From contig NZ_JAIVMC010000003.1 in the NCBI RefSeq assembly GCF_020177265.1, forward strand, positions 1-64,000: DNA of 64,000 bases. The letters run 5' to 3'. The notes below the pieces were generated by a model, which had not been told where the DNA came from, did not search any database, and saw only the letters and a program-made list of their open reading frames with translations. Positions 34,798-54,666 of the stretch are shown piece after piece (positions within the stretch are counted from its first letter, which is position 1; each line of letters starts with the position of its first letter). Both the position numbers and the translations under genes were made by a program. This DNA comes from Pseudooceanicola marinus (lineage in GTDB: Bacteria > Pseudomonadota > Alphaproteobacteria > Rhodobacterales > Rhodobacteraceae).

Positions 34798-37700
34798 TCA
34801 GTAATCCTTCTCGAAGAAGACGCCCAGCCCGGTGCCGCCGTCGGTATCGACGGAGCCCTTGGCGCGGATGTTGTCCGTCAGGTCGAGGTTGATCGACAGC
34901 GAGGTCTCGCCCTCTGCCGTCACCTCGGTTTCCGTGTAGACGTTTTCCGACAGATACTTGCCCGCGGTGAGGGAGGCCGAGCCATCGGAGTCGGTCGCCA
35001 CGTCCAGGTTGTCTAGCCCGGTGCTTTCGCGCAGGCGACCCAGGACGCCGCCGCCGCCCTGGCCGGTCAGCGTGGCGACCGCCGCGGCCAGCTGGGCGGC
35101 CTGCACCGCCGACAGCTCCGACAGGGGCCGGTCGAAGAAGAGGCGCGAGAGGATCTCGTCCTCGGGCAGGCCGGGATTGGAGGAGAAGGTGATCTCCGGC
35201 TCTGACGCCGTGCCGGTGATGCCGATCTGGTAGACGTAGCTGCCCGATTGCGAGGTGGCGACGAAGCGCAGGATCGGCTCGAACCCGCCCGCGAGGCGCA
35301 ACTGGCCTTCCGACAGGTCGAGGCGCTTGGTCAGGATCGACAGGCGGCCGCGCACCAGCTCGAACTGGCCCACCGGGCGCGGATCGGAGGTGGTGCCGCC
35401 GACCGTCAGGTCGCCGCGCAGCTCGGCGTCGAGGCCACGGCCCCGGATGAAGACCGAGCCGTCGGTGACGACCCGGATGTCGAGGCCGAGGCCCCCGGAC
35501 CCGCCGCTGCCGGAGGAGACAACCGAGGCGCCATCGCCCGATCCCGTCAGCCCGGCCCGATCGCGGGTGATGCGGCTGGCGGCAGGCTCGGCCACATGGG
35601 TCATCTCGGGGATCGCTTCCTGGCCGCCGAAGCCACCGGAGGGCACGCGCACCTCGGTGTCCGTCAGGCCGATGCGGCCCGAGATCGCGCCATTGCCGGT
35701 CAGCGGGCCGGAGACCTCCAGCGCGCCGTTCAGCGTCGTCGTCAGCAGGCCCGCCTGGGTGAAGACCACGCCGTCGATGCCGACGTCGAGGCCCGCGGTA
35801 TAGGGCGCCGACAGGGCCAGCGGGCCGGAGACAGTCAGCCGGCCACCCTCGGCGGGGCGCGCCGCGAGGTCGAGCCGCGCCTGGCCGCCGGACAGCTGCA
35901 CGCTGCCCGAGATCCCCTCGATCACCTGGCTGAGGCTGGGCGCGATCAGGCGCCCGTCCGACAGGGTGATCTGGCCGGAGACCGACGAAAGTGCCGGCTG
36001 GCCTGCGACCGACAGATCGAACCGCGCCAGCCCCGCGACGGAGCGCGGCGCGACGAAGGGATTGGCCAGGCCAAGCGGGGCCGAGCCGCGCAGGGTGATG
36101 TCGACGGAGCCGTCAGGCCGCGCCACCAGACCCGAGAGCGTCGCATCGGAGCCCGCGGGGCCCGTCGCCTGGGCCTCGACCCGCAGCGCCCCGTCGGGGC
36201 CGGGGGCGACGTTGCCGGTGATCTCCAGCGGGCCGGAGAAGCCGTCGGCCAGCCGTGCCACGTTGTCGAGGCCGGCGGAGAAATCCATCTCGATCTCGCT
36301 GCCCGCCACGGTGCCCGAGGCGGAGGCATCCAGCGCGGTCGAGGCGACCTGTGCGGTTTCCACGGTCAGGACACCGTCGGGGGCCAGCGACAGCAGGGCC
36401 GAAAGGGTCGTGTCACCCGCAAACAGCGCGTCGATCTGCGGGTTGCCGATGCCGATGTTGCGCCCCTCGCCACGCGCGTCGATGCGATAGGCGCCGCTGT
36501 CGTCGGCGCTGACATTGGCCGTCAGTTCCAGCGGACCGGCGGAGGCGCCCAAGGGCGCGGCGGAGTTGGGCAGCGTCAGCGCCACGTCCAGAGCGGTTTC
36601 GGGGCCAGCGACGAGGCCCGAGGCGGTCAGGTCCAGCCCGCCCGCGTCCAGATCGGCACGGCTGACGGTGATACGTTCGCCCGCGATGGTCACATCCGCG
36701 TCCAGACGGGTCGGGCCGGTCAGCAGGGCGTCCACGGCCTCGATGCCGGTGCCGATGCGATCGCCGCCACCCGAGATCGTGGCGCGCAGGGCCTCGCCCT
36801 CGCTGGTCAGGCGGCCCGACAGCTCCAGCGGGCCGGCAGTGCCGCCGGTGAAGGTGGCGGAGTTTGCCAGCCAGGCGCCGAAGTCGAGCGCCATCTTGCT
36901 GTCGTCACCGGCCAGCGGGCCGGAGGCCGTCAGGCGCAGGGCGTCGTTCTCGATCCGGGCACGGTCGATGCGCGGGGCCCCGTCGCCGGGCAGGGTCACC
37001 AGGGCGTCCAGCGAGAGGCCCGACGACAGCAGGTCGTCCAGCGCGTCGATGCCGAGGGCCAGGCGGTCGCCGCCGCCCTGGGCGGTCAGGGTCATTGCCT
37101 GCGCCGTCTGCGTGATGGCGCCCGCCACGGTGAAGGGCGCCGGATCGCCCGCAGCGCCGGTCAGCAGATTGGCGTCGGTCAGCGCCAGCTCATAGGTGAT
37201 CTGGCCATCATCGGAGGCCAGCCGACCCTCGCCGGTCAGGGACATCTCGTCGGTGCCGATGGCCAGCTCCGACAGGGTGATGCCGGTCTCATCGCGGGTC
37301 AGGTCCAGCGCCAGCGTCGCGGGGGAGGCCAGAAGGGCATCGGCCTGGGGGATGCCGGTGGCCAGGTTCTCACCCGTGCCCTCGGCGGTGATGCGCCCGG
37401 TGCCGGCGGGCAGCTGCATGTCGGCGGTGACCGACAGATCGGCCTGGCCGGCCAGATCCAGCCCGGTGAGGGACGCGAAGGCCGCGAGATCCGCGACCTC
37501 GGCCCCGGCCTCCACCGTCAGCCCGGCCTGTTCGCCCGCCTCGGTGGTGCCGTCATAGCGCGCGGCGCCGGTCAGGCGCAGGGCGGGGCCCTCGACCACC
37601 AGGTTCTCGATGCTGACAGGGCCCTCGCCGAAGGTGATGTCGGCGGCGCCGGTGATACGGTCGCCCAGGGCCTCGGCGACGGCCGGGTCCTCGGCGGAGA

Positions 37701-38967
37701 GGCCCGAGGCCTCCAGCGCCAGGGCCAGGTCGCTGGCGCGACCCTGGCGCAGCGGGCCCGAAAGGCTCAGCGACAGGGTGTCGGCGGAAAAGCCGGTGGC
37801 GCGGGCGGCATTGGCATCCAGCCGCGCCTCCATCTGGTTGGAATTGTCCCGGTCGAAGGTGGCGGTCAGCTCGCCCGAGGCCAGCGAGAGGCCATCGCCC
37901 ATGGGCAGGTCCAGCCGGTCGGAGCCGTCGGGCGCGGCCATCAGGCCCCGCAGGTCGAAGCTCTGCGGGCTGCCCTCGGCGTCCAGCGCCAGCCGCCCTT
38001 CGAGGTTCACCGAGGCCGAGCGCAGGCGGAACAGCTGCAGGTCCAGCGCGCCGTCGGCGGCGGCCGTGCCGGTGGCGGTCAGGCCGATGTCGGTCCCCAA
38101 GAACTCGCGGTAGTCGGGCGCCAGCAGGGCTGTCAGGTCGCCGCCCAGATCGGCGGTGAATTCGCGCCCGCCATCGTCACGGCCGCGCAGGGCCACCTGG
38201 CCGGTCAGCCGTTCCTCGCCATCGGTCAGCAGCAGCAGGTTCGCGTCGTAGTCGTCCAGAGGGCCGGCGCCGGCCACGGTCAGCTCGACCGAGGGGGTGC
38301 CCGGCAGCCCCATGAGAGAGGCCACCAGCCCGCCCTCGGGTTCGGAGGCGCTGATGTCCACCGCCAGGCGTTCGTCCTCGGGGGCGTAGTCGGCGGAGAT
38401 CGCGATCTGGCCGGGCCGGTCGAGGCGGTCGATCGCCAGGTCCGTGGCCAGCGCGCCGTCGGCCAGGCTGGCCGAGCCGTTCAGCGACAGTTCGGCGGCC
38501 TGGCCCACCACGGCCTCGCCCATGTCGAAACGGCCGATCGACAGCTCGCCGATGTCGATGGCGACCGGCAGGTCGGGAATGGCAAAGCCCGAGGCCTCGG
38601 GCGAGGGGGCGGCAGGTTCGCTTTCGGGCAGTCGGGTCAGCGTGATGCTGTCCGCCGACAGGGTGTTCACGTCCAGCCGTCCGCGCAGCAGCGCGGAGCG
38701 GTTCCAATCCAGCGTGGCGCCTTCCAGGTCCAGCCAGATGCCATCCTCGTCGGCAATGGTCAGGCGCTGCATCGTGGCCTGCGACGACAGCGCGCCCTCG
38801 AAGCCGGTGATGTCCACCGTCATGCCGTCCGAGGACAGCGCGTTCTGCAGGGTGCGGGTCAGGAACCCCTCGCCGTCGTCATCGGCCGAAGGGGTCTGCT
38901 GGGCCGCGGCGGGCGTCAGGGCGAGGGTGGCGCAGGTGGCCAGCGCGAGGGAGCGGGAAAAACGCAT
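34798..38967 (-). CDS. tamB: Translocation and assembly module subunit TamB
   Basis: A 1389-residue inner-membrane-anchored periplasmic protein. It has an N-terminal signal/anchor (MRFSRSLALATCATLALTP), then a very long repetitive beta-rich region of alternating short strands (recurring GPL/SGPLA-type turns). The C-terminal DUF490/TamB domain (about 1050-1389) includes RVVTDGSVFIRGRGLDAELRGDL and the end GLGVFFEKDY. TamB bridges the periplasm and, with TamA, helps insert outer-membrane proteins and move lipids. Its start shares one base with the tamA stop (TGATG), so the pair is coupled. Length is normal for the family. Confidence 0.93.
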   Translation of the reverse strand: MRFSRSLALATCATLALTPAAAQQTPSADDDGEGFLTRTLQNALSSDGMTVDITGFEGALSSQATMQRLTIADEDGIWLDLEGATLDWNRSALLRGRLDVNTLSADSITLTRLPESEPAAPSPEASGFAIPDLPVAIDIGELSIGRFDMGEAVVGQAAELSLNGSASLADGALATDLAIDRLDRPGQIAISADYAPEDERLAVDISASEPEGGLVASLMGLPGTPSVELTVAGAGPLDDYDANLLLLTDGEERLTGQVALRGRDDGGREFTADLGGDLTALLAPDYREFLGTDIGLTATGTAAADGALDLQLFRLRSASVNLEGRLALDAEGSPQSFDLRGLMAAPDGSDRLDLPMGDGLSLASGELTATFDRDNSNQMEARLDANAARATGFSADTLSLSLSGPLRQGRASDLALALEASGLSAEDPAVAEALGDRITGAADITFGEGPVSIENLVVEGPALRLTGAARYDGTTEAGEQAGLTVEAGAEVADLAAFASLTGLDLAGQADLSVTADMQLPAGTGRITAEGTGENLATGIPQADALLASPATLALDLTRDETGITLSELAIGTDEMSLTGEGRLASDDGQITYELALTDANLLTGAAGDPAPFTVAGAITQTAQAMTLTAQGGGDRLALGIDALDDLLSSGLSLDALVTLPGDGAPRIDRARIENDALRLTASGPLAGDDSKMALDFGAWLANSATFTGGTAGPLELSGRLTSEGEALRATISGGGDRIGTGIEAVDALLTGPTRLDADVTIAGERITVSRADLDAGGLDLTASGLVAGPETALDVALTLPNSAAPLGASAGPLELTANVSADDSGAYRIDARGEGRNIGIGNPQIDALFAGDTTLSALLSLAPDGVLTVETAQVASTALDASASGTVAGSEIEMDFSAGLDNVARLADGFSGPLEITGNVAPGPDGALRVEAQATGPAGSDATLSGLVARPDGSVDITLRGSAPLGLANPFVAPRSVAGLARFDLSVAGQPALSSVSGQITLSDGRLIAPSLSQVIEGISGSVQLSGGQARLDLAARPAEGGRLTVSGPLALSAPYTAGLDVGIDGVVFTQAGLLTTTLNGALEVSGPLTGNGAISGRIGLTDTEVRVPSGGFGGQEAIPEMTHVAEPAASRITRDRAGLTGSGDGASVVSSGSGGSGGLGLDIRVVTDGSVFIRGRGLDAELRGDLTVGGTTSDPRPVGQFELVRGRLSILTKRLDLSEGQLRLAGGFEPILRFVATSQSGSYVYQIGITGTASEPEITFSSNPGLPEDEILSRLFFDRPLSELSAVQAAQLAAAVATLTGQGGGGVLGRLRESTGLDNLDVATDSDGSASLTAGKYLSENVYTETEVTAEGETSLSINLDLTDNIRAKGSVDTDGGTGLGVFFEKDY

Positions 38968-40829
38968 CAGAAGCTCTGTCCAATTCCGACATAGACCGAA
39001 ACCGAATCCACCGAGCCGGTGACCGGCACGGCCAGATCGGCGCGGATCGGCCCGATGGAGGTGAAGTAGCGCACGCCGACACCGGCGCCGCCGTGCCATT
39101 CGCCGCCCGCGAAATCGGGATCGGCGGAGACATATCCGTAATCGACGAAGGCCGCCGCGCCCCAGCTTTCGCCGATCCGCGTGCGCAGTTCGGTCGAGAT
39201 GGCGGCGAAGCCGCGCCCGCCAGTGGCGGTGTCACCCGATCCGACGCCCAGCGACTGATAGCCCTGGCCGCGCACCGTGTCGCCGCCGCCCGACCAGAAC
39301 AGCCAGTCCGCGGGCACTTCCTCGATCTCGGGACCGGCTACCACGCCCATCTGAAGCCGTGCCGCCAGGACGAAGCGTCCCTCGGCAAAGCCGCGGTAGC
39401 CGCGCAGGTCGGCGGTGCCCAGCACGCCGCTTTCGGTATCCGAAAGCCCGAGGAAGGGCATCGCCGTCACCTCGGCATAGGCGCCGTCGGTGGGGTTGGT
39501 GCTGTTGTCGCGATTGTCCCAGGTCAGCCCGCCGGTCAGCAGTAGGTGGGTGAAGTCGCGGGTGCCGTTGGCATCCTCGGTTTCCGAGATGCGGAAGCCC
39601 AGCTCGTAGTTGGCCGACAGGGTCTCGGTCAGGTAGCGGTCGACGCCCACCGAGGCTTCGGCGAAGGTCGAGATATAGTTGGGCTCGTCCTCGCGCGCCA
39701 GGTCTAGGCCGAAGATCAGGCTGCGGTCCGGGCTGAGGAAGGCGGGGTAGGTGTAGGTGGCGCCCAGGGCATAGTCGATGCCGCCGGTCTCGCCGCCGAT
39801 GCCTGCCACCTCTGCGTCGAAGCGCAGCCGGTCGGCGGCGCCGGAGATGTTGCGGTGCAGCCAGTAGCCCGACAGGGTCAGCCCGTCGGTGGTGGCATAT
39901 TCGATGCCGGTGCCCAGGCGGCGGGGCTTGGCGTCCTCCACCTCCAGCGTCATCGGCAGGGTGTTGTTGGGCCCGATCTCCTCGGCCTCCGTCACCACGG
40001 CGCTGGCGAAGGCGCCGGCGGTGCGCAGGCGGGATTCGGCGCGGTCGATTTCCGAGGGCGCATAGACCTCGCCCTCGGGGAGGCCCGCGATGGCGCGGAT
40101 GCGCTCGGGGCGGACCGCGCTCATCCGTGCGGTTTCCGACAGCAGGGTCGGCCCGAAGGTCAGCCGGGGGCCCGGGGCGATGGTGAAGGCCGCGTCGACG
40201 CGGCGGTCGGCGTGATCGGCGGTGATGCGTTGCTCGGTGATCTCGGCCTTGGCGTGGCCACGCTCGGCCCAGGCCGTGCGGCCCGCCTGGGCAGACTGGC
40301 GCATGACGACGGTGCCGGCCGGGTCGCCGGTGGCGAAGCCCTCGGGCGGGCTGACGCCTTCGGGCAGAGGCGCGACCGATGTGGCGCCGAAACTGAAACG
40401 CGGCCCGGGCGTCACGGAAATGTCGATCCGGTTCACCTGGGCGTCGCGGTCCAGCACCGACATCGAGGAGGCCTCGCGCCCGTCGATACGGATCGAGATC
40501 GCGCCGGAGAAATAGCCATCCTCGTAAAGAGCGGCCAGCAGCCGGCGGTAGTCGGCCTGGGCCGCCGCGATCAGCTCCTGCGCGTCGGTGGTGCCTTCGT
40601 CCTCTGCCGAGACAGAGAGAGAGGCCGCGCGCATGCGATCCTCCAGGTCCTCGTCGCCCGCGACACTGACCGAGACATCGGCCGCCGACAGCGGGCCGGG
40701 CAGGGGCAGCGTCAGGGTGGCGGCCCCCAGTGTCGTGGCCCAGAGCGCGGCGCGCAGGGCGCTGCGGCGGCCGGACCGTTGGCGGCGGGACGAGGCAGAT
40801 GCGGGGGCAGCGGGGCAGCGAGGCGTCAT
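38967..40829 (-). CDS. tamA: Outer-membrane assembly protein TamA (Omp85 family)
   Basis: A 620-residue Omp85 protein. After an N-terminal signal region ending near LSA-A there are POTRA-type domains (about 60-270). The C-terminal 16-strand barrel domain includes GGGDTVRGQGYQSLG near 510 and ends in a terminal Phe, as outer-membrane proteins require. It forms the translocation and assembly module with TamB. The start at 40829 is chosen because AGGAAAGG lies about 12 nt upstream; an ATG at 40874 in frame lacks a ribosome site. First gene of the tamA-tamB operon, divergent from the cytochrome gene. Confidence 0.9.
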   Translation of the reverse strand: MTPRCPAAPASASSRRQRSGRRSALRAALWATTLGAATLTLPLPGPLSAADVSVSVAGDEDLEDRMRAASLSVSAEDEGTTDAQELIAAAQADYRRLLAALYEDGYFSGAISIRIDGREASSMSVLDRDAQVNRIDISVTPGPRFSFGATSVAPLPEGVSPPEGFATGDPAGTVVMRQSAQAGRTAWAERGHAKAEITEQRITADHADRRVDAAFTIAPGPRLTFGPTLLSETARMSAVRPERIRAIAGLPEGEVYAPSEIDRAESRLRTAGAFASAVVTEAEEIGPNNTLPMTLEVEDAKPRRLGTGIEYATTDGLTLSGYWLHRNISGAADRLRFDAEVAGIGGETGGIDYALGATYTYPAFLSPDRSLIFGLDLAREDEPNYISTFAEASVGVDRYLTETLSANYELGFRISETEDANGTRDFTHLLLTGGLTWDNRDNSTNPTDGAYAEVTAMPFLGLSDTESGVLGTADLRGYRGFAEGRFVLAARLQMGVVAGPEIEEVPADWLFWSGGGDTVRGQGYQSLGVGSGDTATGGRGFAAISTELRTRIGESWGAAAFVDYGYVSADPDFAGGEWHGGAGVGVRYFTSIGPIRADLAVPVTGSVDSVSVYVGIGQSF

Positions 40830-41258
40830 CGGGCGCGGGGCCTTTCCTGTCGGCACGAGGCCGGTGGTCGTCATCGGCGACGCCCGACCGCGCCGGGGGC
40901 AGATCCCGTTCCGCGCGCGATGACGCAGCGGAATGGCGCAGAGAGAGCGTCAGGGAGCAAGCTAGTTCGGCTGAAGGTAAATGACCAGCTTTGGCCGTGC
41001 TCCCTGACCTCCCAAAAGCGGAAAATCGCGGCATGCGCGCGACGCCGTGCAGCCTTGCATCCCAAGGTTTTGCAGCGCGTGACACGCGCGGTGAGGCAAG
41101 CGGCGCCAGACGGCTGCCCAGGGCAGGAAAACCGGACTTGTCGGGGCAAAATGACTCCGCGGGAGGTGACAAAAGCCGTCAGGCCGGGAAAAGTTGTCTC
41201 CGGGACGGCGCTTTTTCGCCTATCCTGCCTCGGAGTACAGATTCTGACCGGTGCGATT
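40830..41258. other. Divergent intergenic region between tamA and the cytochrome gene
   Basis: A 429-base spacer with no convincing gene. A short dyad GCCGT (about 41176) / ACGGC (about 41206) lies upstream of the cytochrome start. No EcfG-type promoter or clear -35/-10 pair was found, and the cytochrome ATG has no strong ribosome site, so its start and promoter remain uncertain. Confidence 0.35.
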
Positions 41259-44200
41259 ATGCCAAAAGCAAGTTCTTCAGCCCGGCCCTTCTGGGTCATC
41301 GCCTGTCTCGGAGCCGCCCTGCCGGGTGGCGCCCTGGCCGAGCCCTTCGAGGCCGGCGCCTTCGACAGCTATCAGCCCGACATGGTCCGGGGCGAACGCT
41401 TGTTCCAGTTGGGCGCCTGCGCCTCCTGTCACCAGGATCCGGCCGCCGCGCTGGACCCGGCGGCGCCCCTTCTGGCGGGGGGGATGAAGATCGACAGCCC
41501 GAACTACGGCCTGATCTCCGTGCCCAATATCACCGGCAGCGCGGCGGGCCTCGGGGACTGGACCCGGGCCGATTTCCTCAACGCGATGCTGTATGGCCAG
41601 TCGCCGGACGGGGGCGAGTACACGCCGCTCTTTCCCTACGAGTTCTACTCGGGGATGAAACCCGAGCACGTGGTGGACCTGTTTGAATACCTGAAGGCCG
41701 AGGCACCCAGATCCGACCGGCCCAGCGAGGATCACGAGCTGACCCTGCGCTACCGACTGAAACGGTCGAACCCCTGGCGCTATTCCTTTGAACCCGCCAG
41801 CTATGACGGCGCGGGCGACAGCGAGGCCGATCCGGTCGCCTGGGGGCAATACGTGGTGGAAAACGTCGCCGCCTGCGGCAGTTGCCACACGCCGCGCAAC
41901 TCAGCCTTCATCCTTCAGGAGGATCAGGCGCTGACCGGCGGGATTTCCGTACTGGGCGAGGTCGCGGGCGACATCACCAAGGGCGCCGTCTCGGGCCTGG
42001 CGCCGGAAGATTTCGTGGCCCATGTGCTGGGCGACGGCCTGGGGCTGGACCTGACGACCCCGGTCAAGGGCTCCATGGCGCGGGTCGCGGGGCAGCTCGG
42101 TCAGGCACCGGAAGAGGACCGGCAGGCGATCTTCCAGTACCTCGCGGATATGCCGGAGCTGCCAAAACCCGTGATCGAGATGGAATGCGCGGCGCCCACG
42201 CCCCTGGTGCAGGCCGCCTCGCCGGATCTGACGGCCAGGGTCGACGCCTATTTCAATTCCGACTGCAAGGCCTGCCACGCGCGGGGCGGATCGGCGGCGG
42301 CCCAGGCCACGCTTGTATCGGCCGCCAAGACCGCCGCCGACAGCTCGCTCGTGGTGCCGGGCGACCCGGGCGCCTCGGCCCTCTACAAGTCGCTGAACCG
42401 CATGCCCACGAGCCAGGCGGCCAGCGACGCCGACCGCGCGCTGATCGCCGACTGGATCGAAAGCCTGGCGGTCAACAAGGAGCTGCTGACGGCCGAGGTG
42501 AAGCCGCCGCCGCGTGATCCCAGCCGGATGCACGAGGGCTTCGCCGCCGAGTTTGCCGCCGTGCAGGGCCACCTGACCGCCCAGGATCAGCTGGACCGTC
42601 CCTTCCTGCGCTACTTCTCCTTCGGCCACCTGGAAAACGGCCAGCTGCCGTGCCAGTCGATGGACGACTTCCGCATGCAGCACCTGTCGGGCTACGTGGC
42701 GGCGCTGAACAAGATGGTGAACTCCCTGTCGTGGGAGCCGCGCATCACCCAGGTCGAACCGATCGCCGAAGGGGCCTCGATCTTCGTCATCGACATCCGC
42801 GACTTCGGCTGGACGCCTTTCCAGTGGGAAGTGCTGGTCTCCGGCCAGATCCCAGGGATCGAGACGGCGCGGCCCTATCCCTACGGCATGGACCCGCAGG
42901 GCCTGAACGCCGACCCCAACCTGAAGATGCTGGCCTCGGTCACCGGGACGCAGGTGCCGGTGATGCGTGGCGACTGGTTCGTGTCGAACGCCGGTCTGCC
43001 CTTCACCTACAAGTTCATGTTGGGCCTGCCCGATGATGTCGCCACGCTGGAGGCCACGCGTCTGCGCGTCGACCGCATCGCCGACATCCGCAATTTCGAC
43101 GTGATGCGGGCGGGGTTCCTCGAAGGGGCCTCGGCGGTCAGCCAGAACAACCGCCTGATCGAGCGACTGGAACAGCCCGCGGGCGGCTACTACTGGACGT
43201 CCTACGATTTCGACCGAGGGGTCGATCCGTCGCGGCGGCTGAAGGAAACGCCCCTGGGACCGGCAGCGGCCTTCCCCAACTCACCCCATTTCGAGGAAGA
43301 CGGGGGCGAGATGATCTTCTCGCTGCCCAACGGGATGCAGGGCTATTACCTGACCGATCCGGCCGGCGGTTATCTGGACAAGGGGCCCACGGCGGTGGTC
43401 TTCCTGAAGGACCCCAGCCCGATCTACGGCACCACCATTTCCAACGGCAAGGCCTGCATGGTTTGCCATACGCGCGGCCCGATCGAGGCCTATGACAATG
43501 TCCGCGAGGCGGTGGAGGCGACCGGGGCCGATGCGCTGACCCTGATGGCGGTGCAACGGCTGCACCCCGAGGACGACGTGCTGGAGGCGGCCTATGCCGA
43601 GGATACCGACCGTTACCTGACGGCGCTGTCGCGGGCCGGGGCCGACATGACGATCATGGAAGGGCCGGGCCAGTTCCATCCCGAACCTGTCACCCATACC
43701 GCCAGCGTCTATGCCGAGAACCTCGACCGCGACCTGCTGGCGGCGCAGTTCGGCCTGACCTGGGAGACCTTCCAGCAACAGATCCTGTCCCTGCCGCGCC
43801 ACAGCGAGGCCTTCGCCCGTGTCTCCGGCTGGCTGGCGGAGATCGACACGCGGGGCGAGGTGGAACGGCTGGACGTCGAACTGGCCTGGCAGCAGGTGGC
43901 GGCGGGCCTCTACCTGACCTCGCCGCGTGGGCATCCGGGCGTCGACGCGCAGGAGATCCAGCAGCATCTGGCCGCCTATGTGCCGGGACATGCGGGCACT
44001 GTCACTGGCGCAACCCCGGCCCAGCCGGTGCAGGCCGCCGCCCATGTGCCGGCGCCCCCGCCCGCGCCGAAACCCGTTGCGCAGGATCGCCAGACCGTCA
44101 CCAGCGCCCCCGGCGCGGTGAAGGCGGGCCGCCCGGGGCTGACCATCAACGTCGCGAACCAGCATCTGAAGGTCTGCGAGGGCGTCAGCTTCACCGTGCA

Positions 44201-44645
44201 GACCGACCAGGCCTGCCTGCTGGACGTGATCTATCCCGACACCTCGGTTGGCAGCTTCTTCCGTCTCAGCCCGGCGGCCATCGGCAACCCGGTGCTGCAA
44301 CCGGGCGAGGTGCGCCAGGTGCCCCAGCCGGGGCGGGAGCTGCAATCGCATACGCCCTCCACCGGCGTGGACATCGCGGTGAACTGCTATCCGGGCCTGA
44401 CCAGCTATGACCAGCTGGGCACCGATCTGATGAAGACGCTGGAGGACTACCAGCGCACGGCGCCGACCCAGACCAAGAACTTCTCCGAGGTGGTCAGCAC
44501 CGTGACCGAACAGACCCTGGCGCCGGACCGGGACGGCCAGCGCGATCCGCTCGCGGCCTCTCAGGTGCCGATCACCTCGGTGCTGCGGTTCACCATCGCC
44601 GAGGACCGCTCGGCGCTGGATGCCAACGGGTCCTGCCTGCCGTGA
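41259..44645 (+). CDS. Exported multihaem cytochrome c with C-terminal DUF4384-like domain
   Basis: A 1128-residue protein. The signal peptide ends near ALA-E (residue 27). Four CXXCH haem sites are visible: Cys54-His58 and Cys206-His210 (two cytochrome c domains like those of dehydrogenase cytochrome subunits), Cys336-His340 (PSCyt1-like, with VPGDPGASALYK and ALIADWIESLA), and Cys733-His737 in a large unassigned region (about 400-900). A proline-rich linker (about 925-945) leads to a DUF4384-like domain (about 950-1070), a domain often found with bacterial caspases. The next gene, 127 nt downstream, encodes a caspase. It probably senses or relays redox state in the periplasm (inference). 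No strong ribosome site; an in-frame ATG at 41151 is an alternative. Confidence 0.75.
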   Translation: MPKASSSARPFWVIACLGAALPGGALAEPFEAGAFDSYQPDMVRGERLFQLGACASCHQDPAAALDPAAPLLAGGMKIDSPNYGLISVPNITGSAAGLGDWTRADFLNAMLYGQSPDGGEYTPLFPYEFYSGMKPEHVVDLFEYLKAEAPRSDRPSEDHELTLRYRLKRSNPWRYSFEPASYDGAGDSEADPVAWGQYVVENVAACGSCHTPRNSAFILQEDQALTGGISVLGEVAGDITKGAVSGLAPEDFVAHVLGDGLGLDLTTPVKGSMARVAGQLGQAPEEDRQAIFQYLADMPELPKPVIEMECAAPTPLVQAASPDLTARVDAYFNSDCKACHARGGSAAAQATLVSAAKTAADSSLVVPGDPGASALYKSLNRMPTSQAASDADRALIADWIESLAVNKELLTAEVKPPPRDPSRMHEGFAAEFAAVQGHLTAQDQLDRPFLRYFSFGHLENGQLPCQSMDDFRMQHLSGYVAALNKMVNSLSWEPRITQVEPIAEGASIFVIDIRDFGWTPFQWEVLVSGQIPGIETARPYPYGMDPQGLNADPNLKMLASVTGTQVPVMRGDWFVSNAGLPFTYKFMLGLPDDVATLEATRLRVDRIADIRNFDVMRAGFLEGASAVSQNNRLIERLEQPAGGYYWTSYDFDRGVDPSRRLKETPLGPAAAFPNSPHFEEDGGEMIFSLPNGMQGYYLTDPAGGYLDKGPTAVVFLKDPSPIYGTTISNGKACMVCHTRGPIEAYDNVREAVEATGADALTLMAVQRLHPEDDVLEAAYAEDTDRYLTALSRAGADMTIMEGPGQFHPEPVTHTASVYAENLDRDLLAAQFGLTWETFQQQILSLPRHSEAFARVSGWLAEIDTRGEVERLDVELAWQQVAAGLYLTSPRGHPGVDAQEIQQHLAAYVPGHAGTVTGATPAQPVQAAAHVPAPPPAPKPVAQDRQTVTSAPGAVKAGRPGLTINVANQHLKVCEGVSFTVQTDQACLLDVIYPDTSVGSFFRLSPAAIGNPVLQPGEVRQVPQPGRELQSHTPSTGVDIAVNCYPGLTSYDQLGTDLMKTLEDYQRTAPTQTKNFSEVVSTVTEQTLAPDRDGQRDPLAASQVPITSVLRFTIAEDRSALDANGSCLP

Positions 44646-44772
44646 GGCGGCCAGGGACGAAAATCTGCCTTGGGGGCGCTGCCGGTGGCACCGGCGGCGC
44701 TCGTACCAACTGCGCCCAGACGACTTGCCGCCGGTTCTGCCCCGGTGGTTCGAAGACCATGGAGAAAGACGG

Positions 44773-47340
44773 ATGACCCCGCTGCCCGCTGCCCGCCGCC
44801 TTCTGATGCTGCCTGTCCTTGCCCTTGCGGCGCTGCTGCTGGCCCCCTTCACCGCGCCCGCCCAGGCCCAGGACGTGGCCTTCAAGAACTTCTCGGAGGT
44901 GCGTGTCACAGGTCCCGTCACCCGAGAGGCCAGCGCCGACAACTACGCCCTGATCGTCTACAACTCGAACTACGACGACGACGCGATCAGCGACCTGGCG
45001 GTGACCGAACTGGATGCCAAGGCGATGCAGAAGCTGTTCATCGACATGGGCTATCCCGAAGAGAACATCATGGTCGTGGGCGACGGCACCAAGCAGGAGA
45101 TCGAGGACCAGGTCTATTTCTTCGCCGAGAAGCTGGATGCCGACAGCACGGTGGTCATCTACTACTCCGGCCACGGGATCACCTTTGAAGGGGATCCGTC
45201 GAACTACATCGTGCCGGTCAACATGACCGCCAGTGCGCCGGGCGCCGAACGGGCCACGCGCGAGGCGTTCTTCAAGCGCCGCGCGGTGAACTTCAACCGC
45301 GACATCCTGGGGGTGGTGAAGGCCGCGGGGCCCAAGGGCGTCGTCGTCTTCTACGACGCCTGCCGCAACTCGCCCCTGGCCTCCGCCGATCCGACCAAGG
45401 CCGTGGGGCAGGAACAGGGGTTCGTGCCGGCCAAGGTCGAGGGCACCGCGATCTTCTATTCCGCCCGCAACGGCGAGACCTCTTTGGCGGCCCTGTCCAC
45501 CGACGATGACGTGCGCCTGTCGGTCTACACCCGCGTTCTGGTGACACAGCTGTCGCGCAACCCCACGATCCGCCTGTCGGATCTGCACCGAGAGCTGCAA
45601 TCCAGCGTTGCCCGCATGGCCCGCAACAAGCCCGGCGGGTCCCATTCGCAGAACCCGGTGATGGAAAACGGCCTCGATTACTCGCGCTCGGAACGCAACG
45701 AGTTCTGCCTGGCGGTGGCCAATATCAACGGCGCCCCGGGCTGTACCGGGCCGGGCGGCGTGCCCGCGCCGATCGCGCCCGGCGCGCTGGACGCGGTCTG
45801 CACCTCGGCCCCCATTCGCGGCAATATCGACGCCATCGCCACCATCGAACAGGCCCGGGCCGAGCGCGATCGCTACATCCAGTGCGACGATCTGCGCGAG
45901 CAGATCAACGCCCGGATCGCCACGCTGGCCTGGGAGGAGACCAAGGCCGAGAACACCTGCGCCGCCTATCGCGCCTACCTGACCTTCCACGAGGGCAGCG
46001 CCCACACCGAGGCCGCCCGCGCCGCCGAGGCCGAGGCCTGCCGCCAGATGACCCGGGAGGAGATCAACGCCCATGTCGTGCGCTGTGAAACCACTGCCGC
46101 GCGGTTGGGCTCCGTCTTCTCCAGCGTCGATGCCGCAACCCTGGCCGAGGCCGACCAGAGCTGCGCCATTGCCGCCACCGCCGACACGGTGGACGGTCGG
46201 GCGATTGCCTTCAGCCGGGCCCTGATCCTGTTGGAGCAGGGGGAACAGGCGCGCGGCCTCGACGCGTTGAAGTTCGCCGCAGGCACCGTGCCCCGCGCGG
46301 CGCTGAAACTGGGTGATGTGCTGTCCTCGCCCGAGATCCCGCTGCCGCAGCGCGACCTGAACGAGGCGCTCTTCTGGTACGAACGGGCCGCCAATTCCTC
46401 CACCATCTCCTCCGAGGACCAGCGCCGGGCGCTGTTCCGGGTGATCGAGTTGCAGAACGAGATGGGCAATCCGGCGGCGGCGATGGATGCCTATGCCCTG
46501 CTGATCAATCGCGCCAGCGAGGCGCGTCAGGTCATGGCCCATCTGCGGCAGTTCCCGGAAGGGCAGGCGGGCAAGCTCTCGCCCTCCGACGTCTACGAGA
46601 TCCTGTTCTTCCGCTTCCAGGACGGCAATCTGGCCTACCAGATCGGCGAGGCCTGGGAGACCGGGGTGCATGGCGGGCAGAACCTGGAACAGGCGCGGAT
46701 CTGGTACACCCGCGCGCAGGAACGCGGCAACATGCGCGCCCAGGCGGCGCTGGAGCGGGTTGGCGCGGGCGGCGGTGGCGCGGTGGACGCCGAAAGCCTC
46801 TGGTCCGAGCTGATCTCCTGCCTGCAACAGGCCGAGCAATCCCTCAGCGAGGAAAGCAAGTTGGAAAAGGGCGTGGCTTGCACCGACCGCTGGCTGACCC
46901 GCGCGGGCCGTGACGATCACCGCCGACCGGAGGTCGAGGAACACCGCGAGGCCCTGCAGATGGATCTGGCCGCCATCGCCCGCCCGGCCAGTGGCGGCGG
47001 CAGCCTCGACCAGTTCCGTCAGTCCTCCGACCCGTGGGACGGGCGCAACGGCAGCTACCCCGGCCAGCGCGGCTATACCGACAACGGGCGCCGCAGCCCC
47101 TCGGTCGAATGCAAGAACCGCTATGATTTCACCGCCGAGGTGGACAATGGCACGATTACCTTCTGGTCCGACGGGCGGACCTTCACCGGACAGATCGACC
47201 TTGCCGGCAATATCTCGCTGGATCGCAACGGCCTCAGCCCGAGGTCGCGCACCGATTTCTGGATTCAGGGGAATGTCGGTAATGCGGCGATGTATTCGGG
47301 CTATTGCGGCAACGGCTATTTCCGCCTGAGCGGGTATTGA
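44773..47340 (+). CDS. Exported caspase-family (peptidase C14) protease with Sel1-like repeats
   Basis: An 855-residue protein. The signal peptide ends near AQA-Q (residue 35). The caspase p20-like domain (about 52-280) has the catalytic dyad His134 in YYSGHG and Cys197 in FYDACRN. Cys-rich helical repeats (about 330-480) lead to Sel1/TPR-like units (about 495-690, e.g. NLEQARIWYTRAQERGN). The C-terminal beta-rich domain (about 775-855) has paired cysteines. The signal peptide places it in the periplasm, unusual for a caspase-type protease. The start at 44773 follows GGAGAAAGACGG. It lies between the DUF4384-bearing cytochrome and an M14-like peptidase gene, all on one strand. Target proteins are unknown. 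Confidence 0.85.
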   Translation: MTPLPAARRLLMLPVLALAALLLAPFTAPAQAQDVAFKNFSEVRVTGPVTREASADNYALIVYNSNYDDDAISDLAVTELDAKAMQKLFIDMGYPEENIMVVGDGTKQEIEDQVYFFAEKLDADSTVVIYYSGHGITFEGDPSNYIVPVNMTASAPGAERATREAFFKRRAVNFNRDILGVVKAAGPKGVVVFYDACRNSPLASADPTKAVGQEQGFVPAKVEGTAIFYSARNGETSLAALSTDDDVRLSVYTRVLVTQLSRNPTIRLSDLHRELQSSVARMARNKPGGSHSQNPVMENGLDYSRSERNEFCLAVANINGAPGCTGPGGVPAPIAPGALDAVCTSAPIRGNIDAIATIEQARAERDRYIQCDDLREQINARIATLAWEETKAENTCAAYRAYLTFHEGSAHTEAARAAEAEACRQMTREEINAHVVRCETTAARLGSVFSSVDAATLAEADQSCAIAATADTVDGRAIAFSRALILLEQGEQARGLDALKFAAGTVPRAALKLGDVLSSPEIPLPQRDLNEALFWYERAANSSTISSEDQRRALFRVIELQNEMGNPAAAMDAYALLINRASEARQVMAHLRQFPEGQAGKLSPSDVYEILFFRFQDGNLAYQIGEAWETGVHGGQNLEQARIWYTRAQERGNMRAQAALERVGAGGGGAVDAESLWSELISCLQQAEQSLSEESKLEKGVACTDRWLTRAGRDDHRRPEVEEHREALQMDLAAIARPASGGGSLDQFRQSSDPWDGRNGSYPGQRGYTDNGRRSPSVECKNRYDFTAEVDNGTITFWSDGRTFTGQIDLAGNISLDRNGLSPRSRTDFWIQGNVGNAAMYSGYCGNGYFRLSGY

Positions 47341-47420
47341 GGCGCGCCGATGACGCCGCCCAAGAGCTGCCCTTCAGGTGCCTGGAGGGCGGCCAGACAG
47401 CAGAAAGCGAGACGACCCAG

Positions 47421-48812
47421 ATGACCCCGTCCAAGGATCCGGCCCGGCCTCTCCCTTCGTCGCGACGCCGGTTTGGCCCGGCAGCCCTGGCGTGCCGCCT
47501 TCCCGTTCTGTCGGACCTGCGTCCGACCGCCCGTGCGATGGTGCTGCCGCTGGCGCTGGCCGCGGGGGTGCCCGCCTGGGACATGGCCCGCGCGCAGGAG
47601 GCTGGCGGCGCGTCGCTTGTCCCGCTGACCGCTGCAGGGGACGCGCCCGCTGTCCTGCGTCCCGTGGCCCGGCCCGCCGACCTGGTCGCGCGCCCGGCCT
47701 CCGCCTCTGCCACCAGTCTGGCCCGGACCGCCGCGGAAGGTCCGGCCGGGTCCGCGGTCGCCGTGGAGGCCCCCGATCCCGAGAGCCGCAGCCTGGCGCG
47801 GTCGGTCATGGGGGTGCTGTCGACCACCACCGCGCCCGGGCGCGACGGTGTGGTGGCCGCTGCCCTCGCCGTCGAAAGCGCCCTGAACCCCGCGCCTGAG
47901 GGGGTGTCCCCCGCCGAAGCCGTCGCCGCCGTGACGCCGCTGCGCCCCCGCGCCCGGCCCGAGGGGCTGGCCGCCACGCCAGCCGCCTGGTTCAGCAAGC
48001 CCGATGCGCCCTGCTTGCCGGCGGCGGGTTTTCCGGATCCGGATGTGCGCCGCAACCTGGCCAGTTTCCAGGCCGATGCCGGCCTCTGCCTGTCCCGCGC
48101 GGGTTTCACCGAACATGGCCGCAGCTGGCAGCTGACCGTGGTGCGCAACCTCTCGGCCCGGCGCGGGCCGGTCTGGGCGGTGCTGCACGACAATGAAAAC
48201 GCGGCCTTCGACAGCGCGCTTTACGCCGTGCGGCGCTACGGCGGTGCTCTGGTCGCGGTGGAAGCGGGCGAAAGCCGCACCTTCCAGGGGCAGGACCCGA
48301 ACCGCAACTTCTCGCTCTCCGCATCCACAGCCGCAACCTGCCGGGACATTTCGGCCAAGCCGACACCCGGCTTCACCAAGGCGATCACCAGCTTCTTTTC
48401 CGACCGCTACCCGGTTCTGACCCTGCACAACAATGACGAGGGCTATTCCGGCGCGGGTGGGCGCGGGCATATCTCGGCCCGGCGCAGCTCGGCCTCGATG
48501 ACGGGCATGATGACCCCCACGCCCCAGGGCGCCCTGTCGGATGAGGACAATGCGATCCTGCTGGCCGACACGCGCCCTTTCGCGCAGAGCGCCGCCTCGC
48601 GCAAGGCGACGGCGGCCTTCCATGCCCAGGGGGTCAACGTGATCTACGAACACGTCCGGCCGGAGCGGAACGATTGTTCCTTCTCCTTCTTCACCCGGAT
48701 GAACGGGCTGGGGGACTACTACAACATCGAGGCGCAGTTCGGCGCGGGCGAGGCGCAGCGGCGGATGGTCGATGTGCTGATGGCCTACCTGGGGATCGCA
48801 CCGCTGCGCTAG
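47421..48812 (+). CDS. Probable exported M14-like zinc carboxypeptidase
   Basis: A 463-residue protein. It has a long N-terminal export region (hydrophobic MVLPLALAAGVPAW, then ARA-Q near residue 59), then a low-complexity Ala/Pro-rich linker to about 190. The C-terminal domain has a full carboxypeptidase-type set in the correct order: zinc ligands His256 and Glu259 (HDNE), substrate-binding Asn294-Arg295 in DPNRNF, zinc ligand His336 in LHNND, and a candidate general base Glu437 in YNIEAQ. The motif reading is mine; overall similarity to known M14 enzymes was not tested. It follows the caspase gene by 80 nt. It could trim peptides or peptidoglycan stems in the periplasm (inference). Confidence 0.6.
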   Translation: MTPSKDPARPLPSSRRRFGPAALACRLPVLSDLRPTARAMVLPLALAAGVPAWDMARAQEAGGASLVPLTAAGDAPAVLRPVARPADLVARPASASATSLARTAAEGPAGSAVAVEAPDPESRSLARSVMGVLSTTTAPGRDGVVAAALAVESALNPAPEGVSPAEAVAAVTPLRPRARPEGLAATPAAWFSKPDAPCLPAAGFPDPDVRRNLASFQADAGLCLSRAGFTEHGRSWQLTVVRNLSARRGPVWAVLHDNENAAFDSALYAVRRYGGALVAVEAGESRTFQGQDPNRNFSLSASTAATCRDISAKPTPGFTKAITSFFSDRYPVLTLHNNDEGYSGAGGRGHISARRSSASMTGMMTPTPQGALSDEDNAILLADTRPFAQSAASRKATAAFHAQGVNVIYEHVRPERNDCSFSFFTRMNGLGDYYNIEAQFGAGEAQRRMVDVLMAYLGIAPLR

Positions 48813-48880: not shown

Positions 48881-50113
48881 TCAGAACTCGAAATACTCGA
48901 AATGCAGCTTGCGGCCGAAGCGTTTGCGCAGCGCGTCGCGCACCATCGGCGGGCCGCAGAAGAGGACGGCGCGCAGGTCCGTAGGCGTTTCCTCGGGGGC
49001 TTGCCAGCGGCCCTTTTCCTTCGAGGCATGCAGGGTGAAGGAGAAATTGGGCACGCGTGCCGCGGCCGCCTCCAGCTCATCCAGGGCCAGGGCCTCGTCA
49101 CGGGTGCGGACCAGGTAGACCATCTCCACCTCGCCCTTCAGATCCTCGGGCAGGGAGCGGACGAAGCTGAGGAAGGGCGTCACCCCGATCCCGGCGGCGA
49201 TCCACAGCTGGCGCCCGTCGCGGGCGGGATAGCGGAAGTGGCCGTAGGGTCCTTCGACGGTCAGCCGGTCGCCCGGTTGCAGGTCGGGCAGCCGCCCTGT
49301 GAAATCCCCCAGGGCCTTGATGTTGAACTGCAACTCTCCATCTCGGCCCTCTCTGCCGGAGATGGAGAAGGGATGCGCCTCGCGCAGGCCGGCGCGGTTG
49401 GCACGGATATAGGCGAACTGCCCGGCGCGGTGGTTGAGCGGTCGCCCCAGGGGCCGGGCACGGATGCCGGTCACGTCGCCCAGGCGGGTGACCTCGACCA
49501 CCTCGTACTTTCGCGCGCCGATCATCCGCCAGGCGAAGCTGACGATCCACAGCAGCGCACAGATCGCACCGAGCGCGGCAAACCCCTCGGCCAGGGTCTG
49601 GTAGGTCACCGGCATCTTCATGTTGAAGGCCAGGTGGAAGGTGGCCGCGCCGAAGGGCAGCAGCATCAGATAATGCGTCCGCTTCCACCAGTGGTAGGGC
49701 AGGCCGTGGCCGCGGATCTTCACCCGGCGCAGAGCGCTGACCAGACCCAGGACGATCAGCCAGTTGAAGGCCAGCTCCCCCCCCTCGATCGCCGCCTGGC
49801 AGCTGTCGTCGCAGGGGTAGAGACGTCCGGAGAAGTCGGGCGGGCCGATCCAGTGCAGCACGGCGGCGATCAGCGCCAGGTAGCCGAACTGCCGGTGCTG
49901 CAGGAACATCTTGTCCATGCCGCCGAAGGCCCGTTCGACCGGGCGCAGCCGGGCGCCCAGCAGGATGTTCAGCGCCATGGCGGCATAGGTTACCAGCCCG
50001 GCGTAGACCGCCCCGATGGCATCCAGGTCGCCGGTGGGGTTCACCGCCAGAAGCACGGCGCCCACGATCAGCACCAGCATGATCTGCGGCAGCAGCCGCC
50101 TTGCCCAATCCAT
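48881..50113 (-). CDS. Membrane flavocytochrome b reductase (ferric reductase / NOX-like)
   Basis: A 410-residue protein. The N-terminal membrane domain has about six helices (to about 200) and carries the two haem-ligand pairs of the ferric-reductase superfamily: His73-x13-His87 and His147-x12-His160. A ferredoxin-reductase-like C-terminus follows (about 205-410), with flavin-binding HPFSIS near 261, GPYGHFRY, and NAD(P)-binding AAGIGVTPFLSF and LFCGPPM. It would move electrons from NAD(P)H across the membrane to a periplasmic acceptor such as ferric iron, oxygen or a cytochrome. It is convergent with the caspase/peptidase cluster. Alternative: a ferredoxin-NADP reductase-like oxidase of another role. 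Confidence 0.82.
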   Translation of the reverse strand: MDWARRLLPQIMLVLIVGAVLLAVNPTGDLDAIGAVYAGLVTYAAMALNILLGARLRPVERAFGGMDKMFLQHRQFGYLALIAAVLHWIGPPDFSGRLYPCDDSCQAAIEGGELAFNWLIVLGLVSALRRVKIRGHGLPYHWWKRTHYLMLLPFGAATFHLAFNMKMPVTYQTLAEGFAALGAICALLWIVSFAWRMIGARKYEVVEVTRLGDVTGIRARPLGRPLNHRAGQFAYIRANRAGLREAHPFSISGREGRDGELQFNIKALGDFTGRLPDLQPGDRLTVEGPYGHFRYPARDGRQLWIAAGIGVTPFLSFVRSLPEDLKGEVEMVYLVRTRDEALALDELEAAAARVPNFSFTLHASKEKGRWQAPEETPTDLRAVLFCGPPMVRDALRKRFGRKLHFEYFEF

Positions 50114-51428: not shown

Positions 51429-52856
<1,428 letters not shown>

Positions 52857-52861
52857 CGATA

Positions 52862-53803
52862 ATGCTGGGACGGACCGCAGGCGGACTTTTCTGGATGTTC
52901 CGCTATCTCGAACGCAGCGAAAACACCGCGCGTCTTCTGGAAACCGGCTTCCGCATGGCGCTGACCGTGCAGGACAATGCCGAAAGCGAATGGGAAAGCA
53001 TCGTCACCACCGCCGGCGCGCGGGAGGAGTTCCTGGAAAAGTACGAGGACTTCGACCAGGCCAGCGTGACCAACTTCCTGCTGCGCGACCGCGACAACCC
53101 CTCGTCGGTGATGTCCTGCATCGAGGCGGCGCGATCCAACGGGCGGATGGTGCGCACGGCGCTGTCGACTGAGGTCTGGGAGGCCGTGAACGAGGCCTGG
53201 ATGATCCTCAAGGAAGAGCTGAAACGACCTGTTTCGGTGAAGAACCTGGCGGAGATCCTGACCACGATCCGCCAGCATTCCAGCCTGGTACGCGGCGCGC
53301 TGCACGGCACGATGCTGCGCAACGACATCTTCGATTTCTGCCGCCTGGGCACCTTCATCGAGAGGGCCGACAACACGGCGCGGATCCTCGACGTGAAATA
53401 CTACGTCCTGCTGCCCTCGGCGGCGCATGTGGGCTCTCGCATGGACAACATCCAGTGGGAAACGATCCTGCGGTCTGTCTCCGCCTTCCGCAGCTATCGC
53501 TGGCTGCACGAGGGGGAGGTCAGCCCCAACACGATCGCCGATTTCCTGATCCTGGACCGGCGGATGCCGCGCAGCCTGGCCTTCTGCTATTCCAAGATCG
53601 TGGGCAACCTGAACTACCTCAACGGGCCGGATGCGCCCGAACTGCCCTGCCTGCGTATGGCGACCCAGACCCATGCCCGGCTGTCGGGGCGCGACATCGA
53701 CCGGGTGATCGACGACGGGTTGCACGAGTTCCTGAAGGTGGCGATCAGCGAGACCGGGCGACTGGGCAGCCAGATCCAGGAAGATTTCAGGTTCTACGGG
53801 TGA
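52862..53803 (+). CDS. Alpha-E domain protein (DUF403)
   Basis: A 313-residue all-helical protein. It begins with the family signature MLGRTAGGLFWMFRYLERSENTARLLE and has repeated acidic helix pairs, such as GTFIERADNTARILDVKYY near residue 170. The family nearly always occurs beside circularly permuted ATP-grasp and transglutaminase-like genes, as here. Its biochemical role is unknown; a scaffold or partner of the ligase is the usual proposal. It lies 5 nt after the ATP-grasp stop and 4 nt before the transglutaminase start, so the three are one translational unit. Confidence 0.9.
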   Translation: MLGRTAGGLFWMFRYLERSENTARLLETGFRMALTVQDNAESEWESIVTTAGAREEFLEKYEDFDQASVTNFLLRDRDNPSSVMSCIEAARSNGRMVRTALSTEVWEAVNEAWMILKEELKRPVSVKNLAEILTTIRQHSSLVRGALHGTMLRNDIFDFCRLGTFIERADNTARILDVKYYVLLPSAAHVGSRMDNIQWETILRSVSAFRSYRWLHEGEVSPNTIADFLILDRRMPRSLAFCYSKIVGNLNYLNGPDAPELPCLRMATQTHARLSGRDIDRVIDDGLHEFLKVAISETGRLGSQIQEDFRFYG

Positions 53804-53807
53804 CATC

Positions 53808-54614
53808 ATGCGGCTGAAGATTTCCCACACCACCACCTACGCCTACGACCGTCCGGTCGACTACGCCCTGTTGCAGCTGCGGCTGACACCGCGCGGCGGG
53901 GTCGCGGGCCAGAACGTCATCTCCTGGTCGACCCGATACGAGGGCGCCACCCTGCAGGTCGCCTACGAGGATCACTTCCGCAACGCGGTCGAGATGGTCC
54001 AGATGGACGAGGGCAGCCAGAGCGTCAGTATCCACTGTTCGGGCGAGATCGAGACCGAGGATCGCACCGGCGTGGTCGGCCCCGGCTGCGGGCTGGCGCC
54101 GCTCTGGCTCTATCGTCAGCCGACCAAGGCCACCACCCCGGGCCCGGTGATCCGCAAGCTGGCCGCCGGCGCCAAGGACACCCTGGCCGAGAACGCGCTG
54201 TCTGGCGTGCACGACCTGTCGGCCCGCGTGGCCGAGGCCGTGCCCTATGCCAAGGGCACGACCCATGTCGCCACCTCCGCCGAGGAGGCCGCCAGCGCGG
54301 GGCAGGGGGTCTGCCAGGACCACGCGCAGATCCTGATTTCCGCCGCCCGCCACCTGGGCCTGCCGGCGCGCTACGTCTCGGGCTACCTGCTGCTGTCGGA
54401 CCGGATCGACCAGGAGGCCGCCCATGGCTGGGCCGAGGTCTGGCTGGAGGGGCTGGGCTGGGTCGGTTTCGATGTCTCCAACGCCATCTGCCCCGATGAT
54501 CGCTATGTCCGCGTGGCCGTCGGTCGCGACTATTCCGAGGCGGCGCCGGTGCACGGGTTGCGCCAGGGCGACGCGTCGGAAGAGCTTTGCGTTTCCTTGC
54601 AGGTTCAGCAATAG
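53808..54614 (+). CDS. Transglutaminase-like cysteine peptidase with N-terminal beta-sandwich
   Basis: A 268-residue protein. A bacterial transglutaminase-like N-terminal region (about 1-85, starting MRLKISHTTTYAYDRPV) precedes the core with a complete Cys-His-Asp triad: Cys169 in GQGVCQDH, His206 in AAHGWAEVW and Asp222 in GWVGFDVSN. These proteins act as peptidases or amide-exchanging enzymes. In this cluster it is predicted to remove what the ATP-grasp ligase adds. No signal peptide, so it is cytoplasmic. Confidence 0.9.
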   Translation: MRLKISHTTTYAYDRPVDYALLQLRLTPRGGVAGQNVISWSTRYEGATLQVAYEDHFRNAVEMVQMDEGSQSVSIHCSGEIETEDRTGVVGPGCGLAPLWLYRQPTKATTPGPVIRKLAAGAKDTLAENALSGVHDLSARVAEAVPYAKGTTHVATSAEEAASAGQGVCQDHAQILISAARHLGLPARYVSGYLLLSDRIDQEAAHGWAEVWLEGLGWVGFDVSNAICPDDRYVRVAVGRDYSEAAPVHGLRQGDASEELCVSLQVQQ

Positions 54615-54666
54615 AGTGGCGCTGCCCGATTCCCTCGCGGGCCTGCTATCGGAGCTTTGACGCCAG

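Follow-up and report, generated by a model that had tools for sequence, protein, structure and literature searches.

Bacterial caspases are common, their inputs are mostly unknown, and the origin of the apoptotic link between cytochrome c and caspases is an old question. What, then, does a multihaem cytochrome c do when its gene is followed directly by that of an exported caspase, and which other genes belong with the pair? The locus that raises this question lies in a 64,000-nucleotide stretch of Pseudooceanicola marinus DNA (the window, meaning this whole stretch) from a genome of 4.55 Mb, and the nearest named relative found, a P. marinus locus (L063), encodes a cytochrome 98% identical to the window's. 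A preliminary description had delimited three consecutive + strand genes, at 41259-44645 (1128 aa), 44773-47340 (855 aa) and 47421-48812 (463 aa), for a four-haem cytochrome, a caspase and a carboxypeptidase, and had proposed a redox-triggered proteolytic cascade, a joint function that can still only be inferred. The trio is present at these coordinates. Its boundaries did not hold: the adjoining gene on the - strand (48881-50113), which encodes a NOX (NADPH oxidase)-like flavocytochrome b, had been overlooked, and no other gene accompanies the four-haem cytochrome as constantly. Across Rhodobacterales and Rhizobiales, we find the genes for NOX, the four-haem cytochrome-DUF4384 and the caspase in one neighbourhood, which in most cases also includes a gene of the OmpA type. 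Based on sequence comparisons, the window may hold the form taken in Pseudooceanicola by an envelope system of alphaproteobacteria in which electron transfer across the membrane is coupled to proteolysis, a reading that we consider plausible but stop short of calling probable.

NOX, cytochrome and caspase genes stay together

A scan of a contig collection yielded 206 confirmed relatives of the cytochrome, and the locus counts given here come from the best 80 of them, those most similar to the window's. Four CxxCH motifs are present in all 80 cytochromes. A NOX gene is found in the fetched stretch at 77 of the 80 loci, directly upstream on the same strand at 69; an OmpA gene is found at 73 (within 5 kb at 71), and a caspase lies within 5 kb at 71, at 65 of them downstream and in the same orientation. 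After reduction by similarity to 36 loci, NOX is present at 34 (directly upstream and same-strand at 30), OmpA at 32, and a caspase within 5 kb at 28 (downstream on the same strand within that distance at 23). The commonest gene order is NOX, cytochrome-DUF4384, OmpA, caspase, caspase, and one locus has as many as four caspases after the cytochrome.

Chance clustering is ruled out by two observations: (i), random placement would be expected to put a caspase within 5 kb at about 2% of the loci, against the 71/80 observed (the genomes of 32 of the 80 loci hold 1-16 caspases each, with a mean of 5.9) and (ii), at eight NOX loci without the cytochrome, taken from the 34 genomes that match NOX but lack a four-haem cytochrome, the fetched stretch contains no caspase. 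These cytochrome-free loci are L156-L163, in genomes G138, G177, G183, G170, G002, G064, G186 and G126. Neighbouring of the three originally described families in other genomes thus holds, far above chance, for the cytochrome-DUF4384 and the caspase, but not for the carboxypeptidase, found at 6/80 loci that all belong to the window's own group.

The association can also be seen at the level of whole genomes. Among 22 genomes of the genus, the eight that carry the cytochrome are also precisely the ones with a full-length caspase and the ones with a strong metallopeptidase match (on contig fragments in G200). Of 121 genomes from the family to which Rhizobium herbae belongs, 11 carry the cytochrome, and every one of these has a caspase somewhere, versus 45 of the 110 others (Fisher 1.2e-4, uncorrected for kinship). 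A phylum search, in which at most five candidates per genome were scored, found the cytochrome in at least 3 of 398 genomes, all in the window's own family. A class-wide search with the full-length cytochrome alignment (three candidates scored per genome) gave full-length matches in 2/240 genomes and is not used as a frequency because ordinary dihaem cytochromes matching the N-terminus swamped it; 53 of these 240 genomes have a caspase.

Two locus types and the anatomy of their proteins

A second sample, not picked by gene context, was obtained by searching 198 Rhodobacteraceae genomes with the C-terminal 719 residues of the cytochrome. It gave 14 matches, one of which (G132), short and with stops, was discarded as spurious. 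Six of the 13 remaining cytochromes have four haem motifs (G000, G192, G055, G082, G099 and G193), and all six have a caspase and NOX at the locus. The other seven have two haem motifs and, at the locus, a trypsin-SH3 gene and OmpA, and the fetched stretch contains no NOX and no caspase. An eighth two-haem locus, from another sample (G915), brings the trypsin pattern to 8/8 seen, the trypsin assignment being Pfam-checked in L052 alone; conversely, no trypsin gene scored above threshold at the 80 loci described above. Protease class, haem number and NOX therefore switch together. Upstream of some of the sister loci (L052-L058 and L164) there are transporter-like genes, for which no identifying search was made.

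The anatomy of the cytochrome shows which parts take part in this switch. It is four-haem as first described, with CxxCH at residues 54, 206, 336 and 733, and it appears to be exported, the signal peptides of this and the other exported proteins being judged by eye. The first three motifs, CASCH (residues 54-58; 41418-41432), CGSCH (206-210; 41874-41888) and CKACH (336-340; 42264-42278), all on the + strand, lie inside a part (residues 25-376) that aligns with the cytochrome subunit of fructose dehydrogenase (7w2j, E 1.5e-24), the cytochromes of alcohol and aldehyde dehydrogenases coming next. Motif 3 is kept in both locus types, and the trypsin type is without exactly motifs 1 and 2 and NOX. 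Because they are missing together, motifs 1 and 2 and NOX seem to belong together, and NOX most likely reduces the N-terminal haems.

The conserved core that follows (42570-43679, +), for which no Pfam family was found, carries motif 4, CMVCH (residues 733-737; 43455-43469, +), with both cysteines and the histidine invariant in the alignments. Near this motif, residue 685 is Met in 7 caspase-type and Ser in 5 trypsin-type sequences of one alignment (A1), and Met in 35/37 rows of a larger caspase-type alignment (A3). The half of the protein with this core was modelled with a mean confidence of 80.8, the first two hundred residues of the core being confident (blocks mostly >90) and the blocks around motif 4 scoring 54-62. 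This half has no sequence relative in the PDB at E <= 1 and no Foldseek match in the PDB at E <= 0.001, where weak SoxYZ- and Ig-like matches were all that appeared; no solved structure thus convincingly matches this haem domain. The C-terminal beta domain (44136-44408, limits approximate, +) is probably a DUF4384 relative, as had been proposed: 33 of the 37 members of the family alignment match DUF4384 (best E 1.2e-8), and the trypsin-type relative in L052 exceeds the Pfam cut-off at 31.9 bits. Its two cysteines, Cys986 and Cys1043, are invariant in two overlapping alignments (37/37 and 12/12 rows), equally so in the trypsin type.

The NOX gene (48881-50113, -) lies on the opposite strand, 68 bases beyond the metallopeptidase gene. 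Its predicted product is a ferric-reductase/FAD/NAD protein by Pfam (Ferric_reduct matched) and its nearest solved structures are 8qt6 (E 3.6e-36) and 8qq7 (E 3.8e-36), the latter being SpNOX, the NADPH oxidase of Streptococcus pneumoniae (PMC11031084). It carries the sequence signatures for FAD, NAD(P)H and two haems that mark bacterial NOX proteins: HPFSI at residues 247-251 fits the FAD motif H(PSA)F[TS][LIMV] given in PMC5676040, its H, P and F being invariant in 35/35 sequences (the window and 34 related loci); GIGVTP at residues 308-313 passes the bacterial-NOX filter of the same paper; a CGP motif is present; and His73, 87, 147 and 160, the predicted ligands of two b haems, are each invariant in the same 35/35 sequences.

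The caspase (44773-47340, +), also apparently exported, is a predicted protease. The caspase fold was called correctly (Peptidase_C14, E 6.6e-22) and the dyad is intact as claimed, with His134 in YYSGHG (45172-45174) and Cys197 in YDACR (45361-45363), so that the p20 fold and His-Cys dyad of family C14 are both present; the Sel1-like repeats come down to a single match below the cut-off (27 vs 30.7 bits). Caspases at related loci may carry further domains: a caspase of a Rhizobium operon carries DUF4384 itself (E 1.8e-11), and in Ancylobacter rudongensis a WD40-repeat caspase (L085:12871-15522), reminiscent of the apoptosome, lies directly 3' of the NOX-cytochrome pair. A small separate frame, G025:C11:3098-3406, resembles the C-terminal 100 residues of the caspase in the window, suggesting that this end of the protein forms a domain of its own. 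A second caspase of the window's lineage is found elsewhere in four genomes of the genus, and three relatives have a tandem pair at the locus; in the window's own genome the second copy lies about 340 kb off (G000:C3:388256-389224, L168), after a gene that, judged by eye, looks like tatC.

What the electrons may be for

We favour, tentatively and with a little less than even confidence, the view that redox chemistry controls or maintains a thiol protease of the envelope; NOX would feed electrons via the cytochrome to control or sustain a periplasmic caspase. The electron path and its effect on the protease, which we infer from gene order and anatomy, may be sketched as follows. NOX would take electrons from NAD(P)H in the cytosol and pass them, by way of FAD and two b haems, to the periplasmic side of the membrane, where it would reduce the N-terminal haems of the cytochrome; SpNOX is able to reduce cytochrome c directly, less efficiently than via superoxide (PMC5676040). 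From there electrons may go on via haem 3 to the core haem, and the DUF4384 part may signal the redox state to the neighbouring protease, perhaps by the Cys986/Cys1043 pair, while OmpA, where present, would anchor the complex to peptidoglycan. Loci with a serine protease have no such electron supply, which suggests that the supply gates or sustains a thiol protease. The history of the caspases is partly in line with an old partnership: in a tree of 66 caspase domains (LG+G4, SH-aLRT support only, one very long row), 13 caspases encoded directly 3' of the OmpA gene in Rhizobiales and Rhodobacterales form one clade (SH-aLRT 98), as expected from an old shared association.

Several points weigh against this reading. 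(i), The locus set, being the best 80 of 206, leans to the window's own type, and 126 relatives stay outside it; the locus genes were assigned by profile searches of open frames with profiles built from loci of the same kind, and Pfam confirmation covers a sample, in which 9/9 caspase frames checked, from seven loci, were confirmed. (ii), No caspase is present in the fetched stretch at 8/80 loci (L068, L069, L070, L072, L083, L114, L135 and L140), and a caspase nearby is thus not obligatory. Two of these loci (L072 and L114) are short contigs; L135 and L140 lack NOX as well as the caspase, which fits a coupling of the two, and the remaining six keep NOX (at the third NOX-less locus of the set, L098, the sequence ends just before the cytochrome). 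(iii), The six loci fetched from the window's group have NOX on the opposite strand and yielded no OmpA gene. (iv), The DUF4384 (PF14326) match of the window's own cytochrome is below the cut-off (E 0.14, 12.7 vs 27 bits), this protein being one of the 4/37 alignment members without a match at E <= 0.01. (v), NOX relatives occur elsewhere in two of the seven two-haem genomes (G002 and G086). (vi), The locus caspases form several lineages, that of the window lying with its genus on a long separate branch, and OmpA-following caspases in L120, L131 and L132 fall outside the clade of 13. Finally, c haems giving electrons directly to a protein thiol would be unusual.

The arrow could also run the other way, the caspase or trypsin cleaving the large cytochrome or OmpA, so that the real product would be a periplasmic electron-transfer enzyme. 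We regard this as unlikely, although the constancy of the cytochrome core beside a varying protease class, the resemblance of the N-terminal part to alcohol and fructose dehydrogenase cytochrome subunits and the eight loci with a cytochrome and no caspase in the fetched stretch all speak for it. However, no dehydrogenase subunit gene was recognised beside the cytochrome among the window neighbours, the run of up to four caspases exceeds the needs of one maturation step, and maturation leaves unexplained why NOX and the N-terminal haems are restricted to the caspase type.

Two further explanations are each rather improbable. In the first, NOX and the cytochrome would keep periplasmic thiol enzymes, caspases included, reduced, without any signalling. 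The company that NOX and the N-terminal haems keep with a cysteine protease, their absence beside a serine protease and the invariant cysteine pair of the DUF4384 part would all be accounted for in this way, but the pair is just as invariant in the trypsin type, and a gene for a thiol-disulfide carrier did not come to light at the loci, though no search for one was made. In the second, an oxidative death or defence module, the cytochrome would sense or scavenge periplasmic superoxide released by NOX and the caspases would kill or remodel the cell. Caspases elsewhere are death and conflict effectors, and in a PADLOC scan of the trio a caspase model matches the window's caspase (E 9.4e-9); in addition, SpNOX makes superoxide (PMC5676040). 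The other two scanned proteins match no PADLOC model, however, and the Omp85 neighbour of the cytochrome is kept in four loci of the genus (L042, L043, L045 and L046), which looks like a settled chromosomal place rather than a defence island; moreover, the cytochrome, caspase and metallopeptidase are apparently exported, so that the cytosol would not be their first target.

A bolder form of the favoured redox-control reading, in which a dedicated NOX-driven cytochrome c switch turns periplasmic caspases on or off in Alphaproteobacteria and provides a testable bacterial precedent for the apoptotic cytochrome c-caspase link, must be considered doubtful, slightly more so than either of these two. 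A three-gene cascade in which the carboxypeptidase step is indispensable, a view for which the perfect match of the three genes in 8/22 genus genomes may be cited, is very improbable, since the metallopeptidase is absent at 74/80 loci and divergent metallopeptidases are present in genus members without the cytochrome (G214, G215 and G216).

Neighbouring genes and known systems

The third gene of the trio (47421-48812, +) probably encodes an M14-like metallopeptidase. The landmark residues of the proposed M14 zinc carboxypeptidase, HxxE...RN...H...E, a pattern that we take to be that of M14, are in place (His256, Glu259, Arg295-Asn296, His336 and Glu437) and invariant in 7/7 homologues. For the conserved half, the predicted model (pLDDT 66.9) has a hydrolase fold, with M14-type carboxypeptidases as best Foldseek matches (E 7.5e-5, TM 0.43) and M28 aminopeptidases and alpha/beta esterases also at E <= 0.001; sequence searches lend the assignment no support, with no match in Pfam (M14 included) or in the PDB. 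Its supposed role in trimming the products of the caspase was not borne out for the system in general: the gene is a lineage-specific addition, accessory to the Pseudooceanicola group, and belongs to no general machinery.

The neighbours of the cytochrome in the window encode TamB, Omp85, the caspase, the metallopeptidase, NOX and an isochorismatase. The TamB and Omp85 (TamA-like) genes occupy 34798-40874 and adjoin the cytochrome, an Omp85 neighbour being found also in the four genus loci named above. Further along, at 51429-55437, there are ATP-grasp, Alpha-E, transglutaminase and proteasome-like genes, the last presumably Anbu, and the same set flanks a distant caspase locus (L049). A promoter/terminator scan of the window gave nothing above chance.

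How does this gene set compare with what is known? Its parts, the haem core excepted, appear to belong to known families, and the combination is seemingly without a known counterpart: no description of NOX, cytochrome and caspase together was found in the literature searched, most subscription journals and supplements being outside its scope. The window's NOX shares a flavocytochrome b design and signatures with the bacterial NOX proteins, SpNOX included (PMC5676040, PMC11031084), and with MsrQ-MsrP, where MsrQ feeds a periplasmic enzyme (PMC5676040). It differs from SpNOX and MsrQ in being genetically tied to a dedicated multihaem cytochrome and to proteases; the word caspase is absent from the main text of PMC5676040. 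Likewise, the cytochrome resembles dehydrogenase cytochrome subunits (7w2j, 8gy2 and 8gy3) in its N-terminal part, to which a haem core and a DUF4384 part are added here. On the protease side, a survey of prokaryotic caspase operons counted OmpA in 14 of 217 (Asplund-Samuelsson 2012, PMC3501461); the words cytochrome and redox are not in the main text of that paper on metacaspase and orthocaspase operons, figures and supplements being outside the scope of this comparison. DUF4384 is also joined to trypsin-like and caspase folds in the trypsin-pseudocaspase-DUF4384 proteins of Alphaproteobacteria (PMC6426788), which, unlike the loci described here, are one-protein fusions, the main text of that paper not using the word cytochrome.

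The system provides a natural experiment in which one cytochrome core is paired with either a caspase or a trypsin-like protease, and the compact operon of culturable Rhizobiaceae (Shinella, Ensifer and Rhizobium), together with the Pseudooceanicola variant, makes redox control of caspases directly testable. The mitochondrial apoptosome consists of cytochrome c, Apaf-1 and caspase-9, and the Alphaproteobacteria are relatives of the mitochondrial ancestor. The resemblance would be one of working principle at most and we claim no membership: as in the apoptosome, a haem c protein and a caspase may act in one pathway, with a WD40-caspase in one relative locus (L085), whereas the cytochrome is a different, multihaem one, the place is the envelope and not the cytosol, and no Apaf-1 STAND scaffold turned up at the loci, which were not scanned with a STAND model. 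If Alphaproteobacteria do have the dedicated switch considered doubtful above, cytochrome c and caspase would have been linked in function in the bacterial compartment from which the mitochondrial intermembrane space arose.

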